Shown here in pieces: positions 728 to 9,743 of a DNA stretch of 38,772 nucleotides. The notes beneath the pieces are model-generated. The model was not told where the DNA came from, made no database searches, and worked only from the letters and a program-made list of their open reading frames with translations. Source of the stretch: Chrysiogenes arsenatis DSM 11915 (GTDB lineage: Bacteria > Chrysiogenota > Chrysiogenetes > Chrysiogenales > Chrysiogenaceae); contig NZ_AWNK01000005.1 in the NCBI RefSeq assembly GCF_000469585.1, forward strand, positions 164,327 to 203,098. The letters are read 5' to 3'. Within the stretch, counting starts at the first letter, position 1, and every line of letters starts with the position of its first letter. The position numbers and the translations under genes were made by a program.

Positions 728-3304
728 CTAGTCGAGACCCATTTCACGCAGTAACGCGTCAATCGCCAGTTGATCCTTTGCGGCTTCAGGGGTTTCAACC
801 TCCTCTTCGCCAAAGAACATTGAGAGGTCAACGCTATCATCTTCTTCATTATCAAGGCACTTAATTAAGCCACGCATATCAACTAACGTCGCTTTGAGTC
901 CCTGAACTTTCTTTTCAAGCTTCTGAATCCGTTGCTTCGTAATATCCTGGAACTCTAACGCACCCATAATTTCGAAAATATTATCTATCGAAGTATCAAC
1001 TTCACTTTGCAAGGCAGAAAGCTTTTTCTCACGCTTCTCTGGGTCAAGCGCCGAAAAGCTCTGTTGTGTCTGTCCGAAATCGTCCAAAAATCGGGTATTA
1101 CTCGCCAAAATCCGTTCCGACAAATCGAGGATAGTATTCGTACTGCTTTCAGCATAACGCGAACTTTCATAGAGCGAATCTATAATTGCCGGCACTTCAT
1201 CACGTGCGCTTGATGCAGTTATACGCGCCGCCATAAGGAGCGATTGAATCTGCCCGAGATAGGTTTCTATTTCGGGGGCAACGTCAAAGGTCGCATCGAG
1301 ATTCCCCTGCAAAAGTGCATCGAGATAGGCACAGATCGATTCGACCTCTGCATCGCCACCAGACTCCACCAAGGACGCGTGTTTCGTCTTGGTAACGATT
1401 TCTGACTTTTGCGCCTCAGCATGCCTTGCTTCTGATTCAATAAAATCGAGCGACTCTTCAAGTTCACTCAGCAACGTCTCATCTATCTCAAAGAGCTCAT
1501 CAACTTCAGCATCATAGGCGCGCAACTCATCAGATAGCTCTTGTTGGTCGTCGACAGCGGTAGGGGCATCCGACACCGAAGCGGTTTCAACTTCACCAAG
1601 GTATGCCAACAATTCATCATCTGCGGCAAACACATCGACGTTCCACTCTTCATCAGCCTTGGATTCCACGTGTGGAGTTGATTGACTCTTGTCGATCTCA
1701 CCGACGGCTTCCGCTACAGGTTGCTCTTCAATAACATCGACCTTTACCCCGCCATCCAACGCTACGCATGCTTCCGTTTCAAGCACCGATGAGTCATCGG
1801 CACTATCCTCGATAGTGAGAACCGCATCTTCGTCATCTAGCGGCAACTCGTGTAACGCTTCGGGTTCAGCCAGTGTTTCACACGTTTCGTCAAGTATGGT
1901 TTCGGGGGTCTCACCCCCGACTGCGTTTCCCAGTAAGTCCTCATCGTGCTCTAGATCAGGGTTAACGGCAGCATGAAGCTCTTCTTGAAGTGCCGCAAAT
2001 TCATCAAGCGAAACATGCATCGCATGTTCCTCGGTTATGCGATTAACCTCAACGCGTTGATCCGCAATTTGCGACAGGATATCCCCCATGATCGCGCTAA
2101 TAGCGGTATCATCAGAGGTGGCAACATCATCCTGAATCACAGATTCGTCGCCAGAAACTTCTGGAAATGCAGAGTCAGCCTCATACACGTCATCCATCAG
2201 AGAGTCAGGCTGAGTGACACTCGTGTCTTCTGATGGACTATTCTTTTTTCCAGCTTCCCCTTGGATGAGCGCCAGCCGCTCCTCGTTTTCGCGTTCGCGC
2301 TTTTCCAATTCCAGCGCAATCAAATCGTCAAGATGGGTGGCATCGTCTTTTGCCAATAAGGCGGTCGCCTCTCCATCCTCTTCCATCTGGCGCAACTGAG
2401 CAATACGCAAGGCATCTTCTTCTTCACGCTTGCGCAACTCTATAGCAATCAAGTCGTCAAGATCACCAACCTCTTCTGGCGGCACGGCAGCACCACGTGC
2501 GACCAGCGCCTCGCGATCTTTGCGATCCTCTGCAAGCATTGCGAGGCGGATTTCATCTTCCTCTTCGCGTTTTTGCAACTCAAGGGCAATCAGGTCATCA
2601 AGATTATCCGATGATGCACTCACTTTTTTAGAGGCGCTCGCGTCACGGTCTTCGGCAAGTGCTAATCCATGTATTTCCGGTTCAGCTTTTTTCTCAGCCT
2701 TGGGCTTGGGTTCGGCTTCTTTCTCTTTAGCTGAACGAGTAGGACGGGGCGGAGCTTCTTCTTTCAGTAATCCATGCGCTTTTTTGATTGTCCGTTCGAG
2801 TTCGGAGAGGTACGGGCGGCCATCTTCATTAACAAAACCCGCCACGCGGTTCAGATCAAGAATAATAAGCAGACGATCATCAGTTTTCCCAACTCCCAGC
2901 AAGTATTCGTTGCTGATATGGCCAATCAAGGGCGGTGTCGGGTCAACCCGTTTCACTGGAATGCGGATAACTTCGGTCACACTATCGACAATAAATCCCA
3001 TCGTTTCCTTCGCAAGGTCGATCACCATAATGCGGGTATTATTATCAAAATTTTCTTCTGGCAAATGAAAACGACGACGTAAATCAATAACCGAAATAAC
3101 CTTCCCACGGAGGTTAATGACCCCTTTCACATACGGAAGCGCCTTCGGAACACGCGTGATGTGCATCCGCTTGTTGATCTCCTGAACCGAAAGGATATCA
3201 ATACAATACTCTTCCGAGCCGAGGGTAAACCCTACAAGCTGCAACATGCTGTCAAGATTTTCATTTTCCTCCGAGGTTTTCTTCCCCTGAGCTTCTGTTG
3301 TCAT
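728..3304 (-). CDS. CheW-CheZ-like fusion protein (array-tethered CheY-P phosphatase, predicted)
   Basis: An 858-residue chemotaxis protein. Residues about 21-165 form a CheW domain, with the typical GVINLRGKVISVIDLRRRF stretch at 61-79. Residues 235-350 hold three charged helical repeats beginning LDDLIALEL/LDDLIAIEL/LDDLIALEL at 235, 282 and 325. Residues about 370-650 are an acidic, low-complexity linker. Residues about 651-820 are helical and contain FQDITKQ (D787, Q791), which matches the CheZ phosphatase signature (E. coli D143 and Q147, also four apart). The last residues, DQLAIDALLREMGLD, resemble the CheY-binding C-terminal peptide of CheZ. The ATG at 3304 follows a strong GGGAGGG; an in-frame TTG at 3331 lacks this support. 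The gene lies 23 nt after the MinD/FlhG-like gene. Domain identities come from motifs; the joint function is inferred. Confidence 0.85.
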   Translation of the reverse strand: MTTEAQGKKTSEENENLDSMLQLVGFTLGSEEYCIDILSVQEINKRMHITRVPKALPYVKGVINLRGKVISVIDLRRRFHLPEENFDNNTRIMVIDLAKETMGFIVDSVTEVIRIPVKRVDPTPPLIGHISNEYLLGVGKTDDRLLIILDLNRVAGFVNEDGRPYLSELERTIKKAHGLLKEEAPPRPTRSAKEKEAEPKPKAEKKAEPEIHGLALAEDRDASASKKVSASSDNLDDLIALELQKREEEDEIRLAMLAEDRKDREALVARGAAVPPEEVGDLDDLIAIELRKREEEDALRIAQLRQMEEDGEATALLAKDDATHLDDLIALELEKRERENEERLALIQGEAGKKNSPSEDTSVTQPDSLMDDVYEADSAFPEVSGDESVIQDDVATSDDTAISAIMGDILSQIADQRVEVNRITEEHAMHVSLDEFAALQEELHAAVNPDLEHDEDLLGNAVGGETPETILDETCETLAEPEALHELPLDDEDAVLTIEDSADDSSVLETEACVALDGGVKVDVIEEQPVAEAVGEIDKSQSTPHVESKADEEWNVDVFAADDELLAYLGEVETASVSDAPTAVDDQQELSDELRAYDAEVDELFEIDETLLSELEESLDFIESEARHAEAQKSEIVTKTKHASLVESGGDAEVESICAYLDALLQGNLDATFDVAPEIETYLGQIQSLLMAARITASSARDEVPAIIDSLYESSRYAESSTNTILDLSERILASNTRFLDDFGQTQQSFSALDPEKREKKLSALQSEVDTSIDNIFEIMGALEFQDITKQRIQKLEKKVQGLKATLVDMRGLIKCLDNEEDDSVDLSMFFGEEEVETPEAAKDQLAIDALLREMGLD

Positions 3305-3327: not shown

Positions 3328-4242
3328 TCAAGAATTCTGGTTAATGAAATTGATCTGCCCCACTAGGTGCTTCAGTGATTTAAGCGCCAAGGAGTTTTCG
3401 CCCATGCTCACTATCGGCTTTGATTCACGAACAGAACGGACGATCGCTGCTTCATACGGCAAATAGCCAATAAAGCGTGCATTTAATAAGAGATATTGCC
3501 GCAGTATATCTTCTAAACCTTGACCGACGCGACGATCAGACTCTTCGCGCACCATGTTCATGATGAGTAGTGGTGAAATTCTGGTCAGCTCTTCTTGCAA
3601 GCGCCGCCCAAATTCTGGCTTAAACTCCCACAGCGCACGCAACAGCGTCTCCGTTTTAAACGTCTCTTTGGGATTTTCAAATATTTCTTTCACAATCCGA
3701 CGCACCACAACATTATTTTTGAATGTTTGCAGTGTTAAGCGACGGATGCAGTTTTTTAGAAAACTATAGGCATTTTCCACACTGGTTGGTTCGGGTGTCA
3801 CAACAATGATCCCTTGGTCAATCTCCAAAAAAATATCGATCTTTTCGCGCGAACTCCCCGCACCTAAGTCGATAATCACACAGTCAACTGGAAGGCGTTG
3901 CATTGATTTAAGGATCCTGTCCCACGTAGAATGGTGCATATCCGTCAACGTTCCCGTATCAACGTGTGCACTCACGAGATTAAGATTCGGGTATGGCGAC
4001 GCGACGAAGGTTTCCTCCAAGGAGGCCACGCGTCGATCGACAAAGTCTGCCAGCGAACGTTCCGGACGTCCCATGCCGAGGCAGGTATGGAGATTTGAGC
4101 AACCGAAATCAGCATCAAACGCTACTGTTTTGCGACCGTAGTGCGCAAACAGGATAGCGATATTGGCGGATATCAGGCTTTTCCCGACCCCACCTTTGCC
4201 GCCTCCGATTGCAATAATTTTTGGACTATTTTGACTTTCCAT
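3328..4242 (-). CDS. MinD/ParA-family ATPase, FlhG-like
   Basis: A 304-residue deviant Walker A ATPase of the MinD/ParA/FlhG group. The P-loop is GGGKGGVGKS (residues 13-22, with the signature lysine K16 and catalytic K21), followed by a Walker A' region FDADFGCSN and a Walker B VIIDLGAG. These ATPases dimerise on ATP and set the place or number of large structures such as flagella or the division site. The N-terminus is short and lacks the DQAxxLR motif that FlhG uses to activate FlhF, so calling it FlhG proper would go too far. Placement just before the chemotaxis fusion supports a motility or polarity role. The ATG at 4242 is preferred over an in-frame GTG at 4251. It overlaps the DUF2062 gene by 17 nt, indicating translational coupling. 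Confidence 0.85.
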   Translation of the reverse strand: MESQNSPKIIAIGGGKGGVGKSLISANIAILFAHYGRKTVAFDADFGCSNLHTCLGMGRPERSLADFVDRRVASLEETFVASPYPNLNLVSAHVDTGTLTDMHHSTWDRILKSMQRLPVDCVIIDLGAGSSREKIDIFLEIDQGIIVVTPEPTSVENAYSFLKNCIRRLTLQTFKNNVVVRRIVKEIFENPKETFKTETLLRALWEFKPEFGRRLQEELTRISPLLIMNMVREESDRRVGQGLEDILRQYLLLNARFIGYLPYEAAIVRSVRESKPIVSMGENSLALKSLKHLVGQINFINQNS

Positions 4243-4729
4243 TATTTCCACTTCTGTAACGAATTATGAAAGAACGGAGTAAGAAATAGAAAATTACTCC
4301 AAAAGCAGTGCCAACAATAGCACATCCCAACAAAAACTCAACTAAGTGTGGTTTGACAAACGCTAAAACCTGTTCCAAATCCATACCGCTTCCTAGGGGA
4401 AAAGGCTCTATTTCACCAGGTTGCGGAAAAAGCCATGATCCAACCTTAAAAGCTAGGCCGTAAAACGGAAGGAACGTCAGCGGGTTCGTAATCAATGAGC
4501 CAGACACCACGGCAACCGCGTTCAGCCGAAAAAGCCATGCTCCCCCTAAAGATAGCACTGTCTGCACTCCCAATATCGGCACAAACCCAATGACGACACC
4601 AATTCCAAAGGAAAGCGCAATGTGGTGAGCAGAATCATTCAGGCTCAGCAGGCGTCGCAGTACTCCGCGAACATCAAAATACTTATGGAGCTTCCTTCTC
4701 ATCAGGCGCAGATACGCCAATTTCCTCAT
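4226..4729 (-). CDS. DUF2062 membrane protein
   Basis: A 167-residue protein of the DUF2062 family, function unknown. A basic N-terminus (many Arg/Lys in the first 30 residues) precedes a hydrophobic region with GIGVVIGFVPILGVQT and SGSLITNPLTFLPFYGLA, both typical of the family. A last hydrophobic segment, about residues 128-152, is probably transmembrane, followed by a basic tail. This suggests two to four membrane passes in the inner membrane. The ATG at 4729 lies 47 nt inside the 3' end of lon; a second ATG at 4702 is possible, and neither has a strong ribosome site. It is embedded in the hsp20-lon-MinD-CheW/CheZ operon. No specific role can be given from sequence. Confidence 0.85.
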   Translation of the reverse strand: MRKLAYLRLMRRKLHKYFDVRGVLRRLLSLNDSAHHIALSFGIGVVIGFVPILGVQTVLSLGGAWLFRLNAVAVVSGSLITNPLTFLPFYGLAFKVGSWLFPQPGEIEPFPLGSGMDLEQVLAFVKPHLVEFLLGCAIVGTAFGVIFYFLLRSFIIRYRSGNNGKSK

Positions 4730-7166
4730 CCCGCACCACCGGCTCCAGTTTTTTGACGAGGGCTATTTTCAAGACCTCCCGCATGTGCTCCACCGTATGA
4801 ATTTTTAGTGAATCTCTCACTTTTTGCGGAATATCAGCAATATCTTTTTTGTTCCCGAGCGGAATAATTATTTCTCGGATATGTGCCCGTGCTGCTGCCA
4901 GTGCTTTCTCCTTCAGGCCACCAATCGGCAGAATATTACCGCGGATCGTCACCTCACCCGTCATAGCAACCTTATGACGCACGGCGACCTGCGCCACATC
5001 GCTTATCAAGCCAGTAGCGATGGTCATGCCGGCACTCGGGCCATCCTTAGGAATAGCTCCAGCCGGAACGTGAACGTGGTAATCGCGCTTGCCAAAAAGC
5101 TCGGGCTTATAGTTCAAATCAATCGCTAAATGCTTCACATAGGTGAAAGCCGCATGGGCGGATTCTTTCATCACATCGCCTAATTGCCCCGTTAGCGTTA
5201 ATTGTCCCTTGCCGACCATACTAGCAACCTCGATAAGGAGAAGCTCTCCACCGACCTGCGTCCATGCGAGACCGTTTACGACACCGACAGCATCCTGTTT
5301 ATTCTCTTCTTCCTGTAGCACTTTCGGGGTGCCAAGGTATTTATGCAAGTTCGCTGCAGTCACCTTAAAGAGTTTTTTCTCGCCATCGGCAACCTTTTTC
5401 GCGACTTTACGGCAAACCCGCCCCAGCTCGCGCTCAAGATTTCGTACACCAGCTTCTTTTGTGTACTGCCTGATAATCTGTGTCAGTACGGGGTCGGTTA
5501 AATCAAGATAGTCACAACTGATGCCATTCGCTTCCAACTGTCTTGGTTGAAGATACTTGCGCGCAATCTGCAATTTTTCTTCTTCGGTATAGCTTGAGAG
5601 CTCAATAATCTCCATACGGTCGCGCAGAGCGGCAGGTATAGAGTGAATATTATTGGCCGTGCAGATAAACATAACCTTACTCAAATCGTACGGCATGCCA
5701 ATATAATGATCGGCAAACGTGCTATTTTGTTCAGGATCCAGCACCTCCAGCATAGCACTCGAAGGATCGCCTTTATAGTCGTAGCCAAGCTTATCAATTT
5801 CATCGAGCATAAAAAGCGGATTGACTGTTCCTGCCGTCTTCATCCCCTGAATAATTTTCCCCGGCATGGCGCCGACATACGTCCTGCGGTGGCCGCGGAT
5901 TTCCGCTTCATCCTTAACACCACCAAGAGAAATGCGGATGAATTTTCGCCCTAAAGCGCGTGCGATCGAGCGGCCAAGCGATGTCTTGCCAGTTCCCGGA
6001 GGGCCGGCAAAACAGAGAATAGGGCCGTGCATATCGGGTTTGAGTTTTTTCACTCCGAGATATTCGACTATCCGATCCTTGATATCCTTTAATCCATAAT
6101 GATCCTCGTCAAGAATCGTTTGGGCAGCATTCAGATCAAGATTATCACGCGTCCGTTTTTTCCACGGCAACTCGATCAACCAATCGAGGTGCGTGCGGAT
6201 AATATTCGCTTCCGAAGCATCCTGATGCATCCGCTTATAGCGCCCCAGTTGCTTCAGCGCTTCTTTTTCTACCTCTTTAGGCATTTTCGCTTTTTGAATC
6301 TTCTCTTCCAACTCCGTGATCTCTTCGCCAACTTCGTCGGTGTCACCGAGCTCCTTCTGAATAGCTTTTAACTGCTCACGCAAGTAGTAGTCGCGTTGCA
6401 ATTTATCCATTTCGCCTTTGGCTTCCGACTGAATTTTCACTTGCATATCAAGGAGTTTCAGCTCTTTTGCTAGTACTGTATAGACCTTCCGCAACCGCTT
6501 AACAGGATGGTCTTCTGCTAAAATAGCTTGAGCGTCTTCAATTTTTAGCGCCATGTTTGCGGCAACAATATCCGCCAGCTTTCCGGGATCATCGAGTGTT
6601 TCTATCAACGCAAGCACATCAGGAAGTATCATTTTCCCATACTGAACCACCTGGTTCAGTTGCTCTTTTACGTTGCGAATTAACGCTTCAACGCGCAACC
6701 CCTCAATGCTTACCGGCTTATCGTACAGTTTCTTCACATTGACCAACAGGTAATCATTTTCCGGCACGAATTCAGAGATAGATCCCTTATGCAAACCCTG
6801 CACAAGCACTTTCACGCGACCATCAGGTAGCTTGAGCATACGAATAATTGACGCGGCAGTTCCAACGCGATACACGTCATCAGCGCCAGGATTTTCCTGA
6901 GTGGTATCTTTTTGTGTTGCCAGAAAAATATAACGATCTCCGGCAAGTGCTTTATTAATGGCACTAACCGAAACGTCACGCCCAATAAACAGCGGCAAGA
7001 GCATAAACGGGTAGACCACAATATCGCGGATAGGCAGTAGTGGCATTTGGTCAGGAATGTTTTCGACCAACGTCCCTTGCCCATCAAAAAGGGTATGGCT
7101 ATCTGTACTATTACCATTTTTATTTGTCGGAGATTGGTTGTTTTCGTTATTGCTATTGTTTTCCAT
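4683..7166 (-). CDS. lon: ATP-dependent protease Lon (endopeptidase La)
   Basis: An 827-residue cytoplasmic AAA+ serine protease that degrades misfolded and regulatory proteins. Order: N-terminal substrate domain (about 40-240), coiled coil (about 240-310), AAA+ module with Walker A GPPGTGKT (388-395) and Walker B LFMLDEIDK (452-460), then the protease domain. The catalytic dyad is S711 in PKDGPSAGMT and K754 in GGLKEKALAA, 43 residues apart as in E. coli S679/K722. The first 35 residues are Asn/Ser-rich and extend beyond the usual start, but AAGGAT stands 7 nt before the ATG at 7166, supporting it. The gene follows hsp20 by only 3 nt, so the small heat-shock protein and the protease are cotranscribed. 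Confidence 0.98.
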   Translation of the reverse strand: MENNSNNENNQSPTNKNGNSTDSHTLFDGQGTLVENIPDQMPLLPIRDIVVYPFMLLPLFIGRDVSVSAINKALAGDRYIFLATQKDTTQENPGADDVYRVGTAASIIRMLKLPDGRVKVLVQGLHKGSISEFVPENDYLLVNVKKLYDKPVSIEGLRVEALIRNVKEQLNQVVQYGKMILPDVLALIETLDDPGKLADIVAANMALKIEDAQAILAEDHPVKRLRKVYTVLAKELKLLDMQVKIQSEAKGEMDKLQRDYYLREQLKAIQKELGDTDEVGEEITELEEKIQKAKMPKEVEKEALKQLGRYKRMHQDASEANIIRTHLDWLIELPWKKRTRDNLDLNAAQTILDEDHYGLKDIKDRIVEYLGVKKLKPDMHGPILCFAGPPGTGKTSLGRSIARALGRKFIRISLGGVKDEAEIRGHRRTYVGAMPGKIIQGMKTAGTVNPLFMLDEIDKLGYDYKGDPSSAMLEVLDPEQNSTFADHYIGMPYDLSKVMFICTANNIHSIPAALRDRMEIIELSSYTEEEKLQIARKYLQPRQLEANGISCDYLDLTDPVLTQIIRQYTKEAGVRNLERELGRVCRKVAKKVADGEKKLFKVTAANLHKYLGTPKVLQEEENKQDAVGVVNGLAWTQVGGELLLIEVASMVGKGQLTLTGQLGDVMKESAHAAFTYVKHLAIDLNYKPELFGKRDYHVHVPAGAIPKDGPSAGMTIATGLISDVAQVAVRHKVAMTGEVTIRGNILPIGGLKEKALAAARAHIREIIIPLGNKKDIADIPQKVRDSLKIHTVEHMREVLKIALVKKLEPVVRDEEIGVSAPDEKEAP

Positions 7167-8765: not shown

Positions 8766-9743
8766 CTAACCTCGCGGAACATCCCACTGGCTCGTAAGTT
8801 TATTTACTTCCACACCAAGCAATCCATCGACCGCTTCAACAACGGCCACCATATCACTCTTAGAAAGCATAATTGGACCACCATTGCTGGCTTGCTTCGC
8901 GCTATCCAAGGAAACAGCATTGGATAGCGAAGTAATAATAAGACCTGGTATGTCAGCTAGGTTTGTGTTGCTCTTGACCCGCTCTAAAAGCTCCTGTCCA
9001 TCCATTTGCGGCATCTCAAGGTCAGTCAGAATAAAGTCAATTTGCAAATCTTTTCGTGTTTCAAGGATGCGATACGCTTCGACACCATTTTCCGCACCAA
9101 CAACATTATAGCCAACTGTCGTAAAGACTTTTTCGGCAAAATCACGTGAAAAAACAGAGTCGTCAACCACTAATACGCGGAAATTCTCCCGTTCTTCAGA
9201 ATAAAGCGCCTCAAAACGGCTGATATCTGGAAGCATTTTTGAGCGTCCAATTTTAGCTAAAATTGTTTCGAAGTCGAGCACCATAATCAAATGCCCTTGC
9301 AGACTGATAATACCCGCAATAAATTCAGCACTCTCTTTATCGATCTTATCGGGAACTTTGACATCATCCCAACTCAAGTGGTGAATTTTCTTAATTCCAC
9401 TCACAAGAAATCCGTTAAAATTATCACTTAGTTCGGTAACGATAACTACTTCATTTTGCGATCCCTCGCTGGATAAGCCCAACCATCCGGGCAGGTCAAT
9501 CAGCGGAATGAGGGTGTCGCGCAAGTTAAAAAGCCCTACAATAGCCGGATCGGTATCAATGATTTTAGTAAAAGCAGGACGCTTGATAATTTCCTTAACG
9601 CGGATAACGTTAATCGCAAATGACTTCTCGACGCGTTCGCCATTTTCATCATGGTCAATGTAAAATTCGAGTATTTCCAATGGACGCTTGCGAATTCCAC
9701 TCCCCGACGATTGCACTCCACTACCAGACACGTTCGGACTCAT
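8766..9743 (-). CDS. cheV: CheV chemotaxis coupling protein (CheW-REC)
   Basis: A 325-residue two-domain adaptor. The CheW domain (about 20-170) couples receptors to CheA, and the receiver domain (about 188-310) is phosphorylated by CheA to tune coupling. Receiver residues are complete: acidic pair D194/D195, acceptor D241 in ILTDLEMPQMDG, T271 in LIITSLS and K295. The first 17 residues are Ser/Gly-rich and disordered. GGCGGTGA lies 5 nt before the ATG at 9743. It is the last gene of serA-ribF-cheV, 3 nt after ribF, with a terminator behind it. Together with the CheW-CheZ fusion about 5.5 kb away, it is the second CheW-bearing multidomain protein in the window. Confidence 0.96.
   Translation of the reverse strand: MSPNVSGSGVQSSGSGIRKRPLEILEFYIDHDENGERVEKSFAINVIRVKEIIKRPAFTKIIDTDPAIVGLFNLRDTLIPLIDLPGWLGLSSEGSQNEVVIVTELSDNFNGFLVSGIKKIHHLSWDDVKVPDKIDKESAEFIAGIISLQGHLIMVLDFETILAKIGRSKMLPDISRFEALYSEERENFRVLVVDDSVFSRDFAEKVFTTVGYNVVGAENGVEAYRILETRKDLQIDFILTDLEMPQMDGQELLERVKSNTNLADIPGLIITSLSNAVSLDSAKQASNGGPIMLSKSDMVAVVEAVDGLLGVEVNKLTSQWDVPRG

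Follow-up and report, generated by a model that had tools for sequence, protein, structure and literature searches.

A single gene in the window (the whole stretch of Chrysiogenes arsenatis DSM 11915 DNA analysed here, 38,772 nucleotides) joins a CheW adaptor domain to a homologue of the CheY-P phosphatase CheZ, and in its phylum this gene probably encodes an array-tethered CheY-P phosphatase that is made, by slippage, as two products. The basis for this overall reading, which we hold with reasonable though not high confidence, is read from sequence and consists of domain homology, catalytic residues, an A tract, stop codons and split reading frames. We also lean towards a phylum-wide control of the array phosphatase by a slippage site in cheW-cheZ, in which lineages would have swapped the mechanism, between A10 slippage and ribosomal frameshifting by -1, and also the product made by default, between the fusion and CheW alone, with the two-product output kept. 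The fusion layout itself is already established in genomes; the slippery site is the new part, and was absent from the first-pass annotation of this DNA.

Domain architecture, distribution and gene neighbourhood

The fusion gene is confirmed at the coordinates of the first-pass annotation and reads on the minus strand; its parts and its conserved neighbours lie in the window as listed here, and an alternative in-frame TTG upstream of the ATG, at 3331, would give a protein of 867 aa.

728..3304 (-): cheW-cheZ fusion gene, 858 aa, ATG at 3304 and stop at 728
2843..3241 (-): CheW domain, residues 22-154, Pfam PF01584 at E=4.9e-38
2528..2602 (-): linker repeat 1, LDDLIALELQKREEEDEIRLAMLAE, residues 235-259
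2387..2461 (-): linker repeat 2, LDDLIAIELRKREEEDALRIAQLRQ, residues 282-306
2258..2332 (-): linker repeat 3, LDDLIALELEKRERENEERLALIQG, residues 325-349
731..1354 (-): CheZ-homologous domain, residues 651-858, from Pfam and the family profile
932..952 (-): FQDITKQ, residues 785-791, with D787 and Q791 equivalent to CheZ D143/Q147 in the alignment to 1kmi
731..778 (-): C-terminal CheY-binding-like tail, KDQLAIDALLREMGLD, residues 843-858
3328..4251 (-): FlhG/MinD-type ATPase gene, sharing 4 bases with the fusion if that starts at the TTG
4226..4729 (-): DUF2062 protein, a member of the conserved neighbourhood
4683..7166 (-): Lon protease, with which the conserved run lon-DUF2062-ATPase-cheW-cheZ begins upstream

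The first-pass annotation had described an N-terminal CheW domain, and this was borne out by a PF01584 match far above the Pfam cut-off (130.3 vs 23.5 bits), by closest solved structures that are CheW, and by a genome-wide scan in which the fusion was the top of ten CheW matches (134.6 bits). The CheW part is expected to be seated in the receptor/CheA array, at the receptor tip and CheA P5. It is followed by a long, acidic linker with LDDLIAxEL repeats, which are conserved among orthologues and contribute to a CheW-to-CheZ spacing of ~500 residues. We also considered the repeats as extra CheY-docking peptides, using a CheZ tail matrix built from the second phylum in which the fusion occurs (that of genome G310, see below), and set this aside as a weak idea, with p of 0.002-0.016 in some families and 0.70 for the window.

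The same annotation had proposed a CheZ-like phosphatase at the C-terminus on the strength of the FQDITKQ motif, with Asp and Gln four apart, and of a CheZ-like tail; both observations were correct, with D787 and Q791 placed ~630 residues after CheW and the tail, KDQLAIDALLREMGLD, aligning to the tail of E. coli CheZ. Its suggested search with Pfam PF04344 succeeded for the family (22 of 22 scanned relatives match, some over the cut-off) and fell short for the window protein by itself, in which residues 757-856 score 21.3 bits (E=2.8e-4) against a cut-off of 30.7, so that CheZ homology had to be examined at the level of the family. There, the family profile found E. coli CheZ (1kmi_Z) as the clear best among solved structures (1.8e-10, with a match that starts at residue 17 and reaches the last one), and hhalign matched it at E=5e-31 to stand-alone CheZs, most of them from within the phylum. 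All 43 fused relatives retain the catalytic D and Q, in a motif of the FQD(I/L)TxQ type with one variant (FEDISDQ), and the tail is kept in most members and is weak in families f7 and f8. In CheZ, this D/Q pair promotes the loss of the phosphoryl group from CheY-P. AlphaFold, given a two-sequence alignment of the CheZ domain, returned an all-helical model with a pLDDT of 49, too low to serve as evidence on the long helical hairpin and dimeric four-helix bundle of CheZ. Judged by homology, the C-terminus is a genuine CheZ homologue joined to a genuine CheW domain.

The window's genome (2.8 Mb, 22 contigs) also encodes a stand-alone CheZ beside cheY and cheA, found as the first-pass annotation had suggested looking for them, together with several further CheW domains. 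The identity between this stand-alone CheZ and the CheZ part of the fusion is ~26% overall, and a profile search of the genome contigs with the CheZ alignment yielded nothing but a stand-alone CheZ. Other chemotaxis-like proteins were seen along the way. The best PF04344 match of the genome is a 319-aa protein on contig C5 (L001:1033-1992, +) with an FQDISRQ motif and the N-terminal FliM/CheZ-tail-like peptides QDDIDALLAGF and DIDALMAEAG, and PF04344 also matches frames of similar size in genomes G001 and G002 (318 and 331 aa). On contig C3 (L005:1246-2580, -), a 444-aa MCP-like membrane protein with FQDINRQ and a weak PF04344 match adjoins cheA, cheY and STAS genes. The window itself holds, at 8766-9743 (-), a CheV-like CheW-receiver protein whose neighbours are small heat-shock genes and a riboflavin kinase/FAD synthetase gene.

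Two family members of the window carry this fusion with the same genes around it, and among the loci first fetched in the phylum CheW and CheZ parts occur together at 35, as a single frame in 27 and in two frames in 8. CheW-CheZ fusions are common, too, in the phylum to which genome G310 belongs, at 390-525 aa, and the two that were scanned carry both domains above the Pfam cut-offs and in the same order. The layout is thus not unique, contrary to the suggestion of the first-pass annotation that no such protein had been described, being both phylum-wide here and common in another phylum; our search of the open-access literature, with subscription journals outside its coverage, found no paper on CheW-CheZ fusions. 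In trees of CheZ, the window family's CheZ clusters with its own stand-alone CheZs and not with the other fusions, and a single clade for all fusion CheZ parts is not rejected (p-AU 0.14), so that the trees are compatible with one fusion origin, which the window family's CheZ part may share with the rest.

An FlhG/MinD-type ATPase gene adjoins the fusion across the phylum, with the fusion usually directly after it, and among solved structures FlhG/FleN is closest to this ATPase. The DUF2062 and lon genes are often nearby, and the order lon, DUF2062, FlhG/MinD-type ATPase, cheW-cheZ (in the window, 3328-7166 plus the fusion) is common to much of the phylum. A second, separate FlhG-like ATPase is found in the genome at C4:52396.

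The A tract of the relatives and its alternative explanations

Between the linker repeats and the CheZ part, 17 of the 18 genera of the phylum have a tract of A10-A14. A tract of at least A10 stands at every relative's junction that was read, leaving the CheZ part in frame in 13 genera and out of frame in 4, and its usual length is exactly A10 across distant genera with GC contents of 30 to 57%; by the criterion of the Thermus dnaX type, a run of at least nine As is conserved in the same fraction of genera (17/18). Past the tract, stops follow in both other frames within five codons in 32/33 in-frame members, where positions elsewhere in these genes give 18%, and within two codons in 82%, where they give 4%. 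Exact A10 runs are scarce in these genomes, with 1-9 per 2.4-3.2 Mb (both strands together), even where AAG is common (e.g., G002 at 57% GC), and because they are so scarce the chance of a sense-strand A10 in the fusion gene is ~0.002-0.003 per genome tested. Genome G021 has three A10 runs in all, two of them inside cheW-cheZ. Of 20 A10 sites that were read, most others are intergenic or near the ends of reading frames. No A10 tract was found when sought in the fusions of the G310 phylum.

In the split members, the CheW frame ends just past 10-14 As and the CheZ frame stays open upstream as far as the tract, over a long stretch ahead of the CheZ domain, so that in four genera CheZ is reached solely by slipping. 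An independent start of CheZ in these loci was considered and ruled out: 29-650 nt separate the junction from the first ATG, which in most cases has no ribosome site, one locus has no ATG at all before the CheZ domain, and no start with a ribosome site was found near the junctions. The frame state is fixed within genera, the members read being in frame in g13 and out of frame in g14 and g11, and g5 is in frame throughout though its tracts vary from 11 to 13. From these features we consider programmed slippage in the A10-bearing relatives very probable, and the A10 sequence would fit slippage by RNA polymerase and by the ribosome alike.

Further tracts were noted beside this one. A second tract of A9-A11 lies upstream in the linker at L062, L064, L068, L070, L071, L075, L076, L078, L082-L084, L086 and L092, with other-frame stops at once in several genera, and three products may arise from some of these genes. 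The CheZ part of L068 (G019) has two in-frame stops, TAA and TAG, beyond the A-tract split, and may be decayed or mis-assembled. In G014 and G015, A10 also occurs in dnaX (L112 and L114, identified by NCBIfam), where the other frames meet a stop 2 and 1 codons later, and programmed slippage is probable there too.

Four other explanations have to be weighed against this one. The gene could be a plain constitutive fusion that makes one CheW-CheZ protein, the A tract and the heptamer described below being by-products of a lysine-rich linker; consistent with this are the window's own gene, which has no long A tract, the 27 fetched loci that are single open frames, the preference for AAA codons at lysine-rich linker ends and the tractless fusions of the second phylum. 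However, the genome-wide rarity of A10 even in AAG-rich G002, the immediate stops in both alternative frames and the shift required for CheZ in four genera make a plain fusion unlikely in our view. A long homopolymer found in both in-frame and out-of-frame states could also act by replication slippage, switching the CheZ part on in some cells and off in others. Such phase variation was ruled against by a frame state that is constant within genera, rather than in frame one third of the time, and exactly 10 As being the usual length across distant genera also speaks against it; we regard a random on/off switch as very improbable.

We give similarly little weight to the proposal that cheW-linker and cheZ are simply separate genes in the split genera, with ordinary fusions elsewhere, or that the splits are homopolymer sequencing errors: several of the genomes are drafts or metagenome-derived and the CheZ part of G019 has its extra in-frame stops, but there is no usable start near the junction, and the split recurs in four genera, always at the tract. 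One of them is represented by the single-contig genome G015, which makes it unlikely that assembly error accounts for all splits. Finally, the CheZ-like domain could be an inactive, degenerate module for CheY binding or scaffolding, as might be expected where the genome has, beside cheY and cheA, a canonical cheZ with so little identity to the fused copy, but invariant catalytic residues in all 43 fused relatives and a largely retained tail render this improbable. Among these readings, we favour programmed slippage.

A candidate frameshift site in the window's gene

The window's gene has no A run longer than 6 and is the sole gene without the tract among those read, so that its case leans on a weaker element, a heptamer located where the third linker repeat ends.

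2243..2249 (-): in-phase A_AAA_AAG (codons GGA AAA AAG), a candidate heptamer for -1 frameshifting
2238..2240 (-): TAG in the -1 frame, one codon past the heptamer, for a predicted 355-aa product of CheW and repeats without CheZ
2192..2238 (-): candidate stimulatory stem of 10 bp, beginning 4 nt past the heptamer

The heptamer is at the same site, with a -1 stop at the same distance, in all three genomes of the window's family, and the window's two relatives have an A10 further downstream in addition. Given the residues GKK, the chance of this codon choice is 4-5% per genome, and a sample of 43,756 codons of long frames from these genomes held 19 such heptamers, of which three had an equally close -1 stop, the same number as the cheW-cheZ sites themselves. 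A stem of 9-10 pairs starts 4-6 nt downstream in each of the three genes, with stem sequences that differ, and stems as good at such a distance are found at 1.2% (window), 0.8% and 0.4% of positions. The folding energy of the whole region is ordinary (z=-0.04 in the window, with ordinary z-scores in the family), and the Shine-Dalgarno-like signal upstream is of unexceptional strength, being equalled at 4, 15 and 18% of the positions in the respective genes. Taken together, these features tip the balance slightly towards -1 frameshifting in the window's gene.

Proposed mechanism and comparison with known systems

In the mechanism that we propose, the CheW domain would insert into the receptor/CheA array and the acidic LDDLIAxEL-repeat linker would extend into the cytoplasm, where the CheZ part would meet CheY-P leaving CheA and dephosphorylate it at its site of production via D787/Q791. 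Slippage at a point past the repeats but ahead of the CheZ part would yield CheW-linker as well as CheW-linker-CheZ, by RNA polymerase slippage on A10-A14 in most members, in the manner of Thermus dnaX, and probably by -1 ribosomal frameshifting at A_AAA_AAG in the window's family, in the manner of E. coli dnaX. The ratio of phosphatase-bearing to phosphatase-free adaptors would thereby be fixed co-transcriptionally or co-translationally, and because slippage would leave a share without phosphatase, array composition, and not expression alone, would set the phosphatase density. Array incorporation, phosphatase activity, the short product and the product ratio are parts of this scheme that we infer. 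The first-pass annotation had expected a covalent CheW link to place phosphatase in every unit, but the relatives, and probably the window's gene too, look built for a CheW-only product as well, and the genome has other CheW domains and a stand-alone CheZ. By analogy with ParP/ParC (see below), the conserved neighbour ATPase may point to polar placement.

If true, this would be a programmed frameshift in a core component of bacterial chemotaxis, of which we found no earlier case in the literature searched (no report of slippage in chemotaxis genes in open-access sources, with subscription journals outside the coverage). It would offer a simple means to fix the share of phosphatase-carrying adaptors, a quantity for which E. 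coli relies on CheA-short and free CheZ, and would make the reason for having CheZ at the array directly testable, as a cell with a recoded tract should be locked into making either the adaptor alone or the adaptor with phosphatase. For the study of polymerase slippage, the A10 tract found throughout the phylum would also provide a second, independent example beside dnaX.

The CheZ part resembles E. coli CheZ (1kmi, PF04344) in near-full-length homology, in D and Q four apart and in a CheY-binding-like tail, but E. coli CheZ reaches the array through CheA-short, whereas the CheZ of the fusion is covalently tied to CheW by ~500 residues. The E. coli CheA gene gives two products, of which CheA-short, CheA without its first 97 residues, recruits free CheZ to the array (PMC7750401). 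One gene with two products, one of them tying CheZ to the array, is common to both systems; in the fusion, however, the phosphatase is carried by the longer product, and slippage would do the switching. For slippage itself the closest parallel is dnaX tau/gamma. In Thermus, polymerase slippage on dnaX gives about half full-length product (PMC5009743), and in slippage test cassettes 11, 9 and 7 As gave 63, 40 and 10% shift (PMC3711429). The cheW-cheZ genes have either the same A tract with two-frame stops as Thermus dnaX or, like the -1 site of E. coli dnaX, A_AAA_AAG with a -1 stop and a stem, and long and C-terminally truncated products, known for dnaX (PMC5009743, PMC3711429), are likewise predicted for the fusion. 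The products differ in kind, dnaX encoding a polymerase clamp-loader subunit and the fusion a chemotaxis adaptor-phosphatase.

The fusions of the G310 phylum have the same two domains in the same order as the window's but are shorter and lack A10, and the member that was read through has no LDDLIAxEL repeats. In Vibrio, ParP/ParC couples an array-integrating domain to a polar positioning partner (PMC5706961), which recalls the ParA/MinD-type ATPase beside the fusion; unlike the fusion, ParP has no phosphatase, and the fusion's neighbour ATPase is nearest to FlhG/FleN. The CheA-CheC/CheX fusions of Leptospirae, finally, also place a CheY-P phosphatase covalently in an array core protein (PMC10542144), as the cheW-cheZ fusion would, but with another phosphatase family and another core protein than CheW-CheZ.
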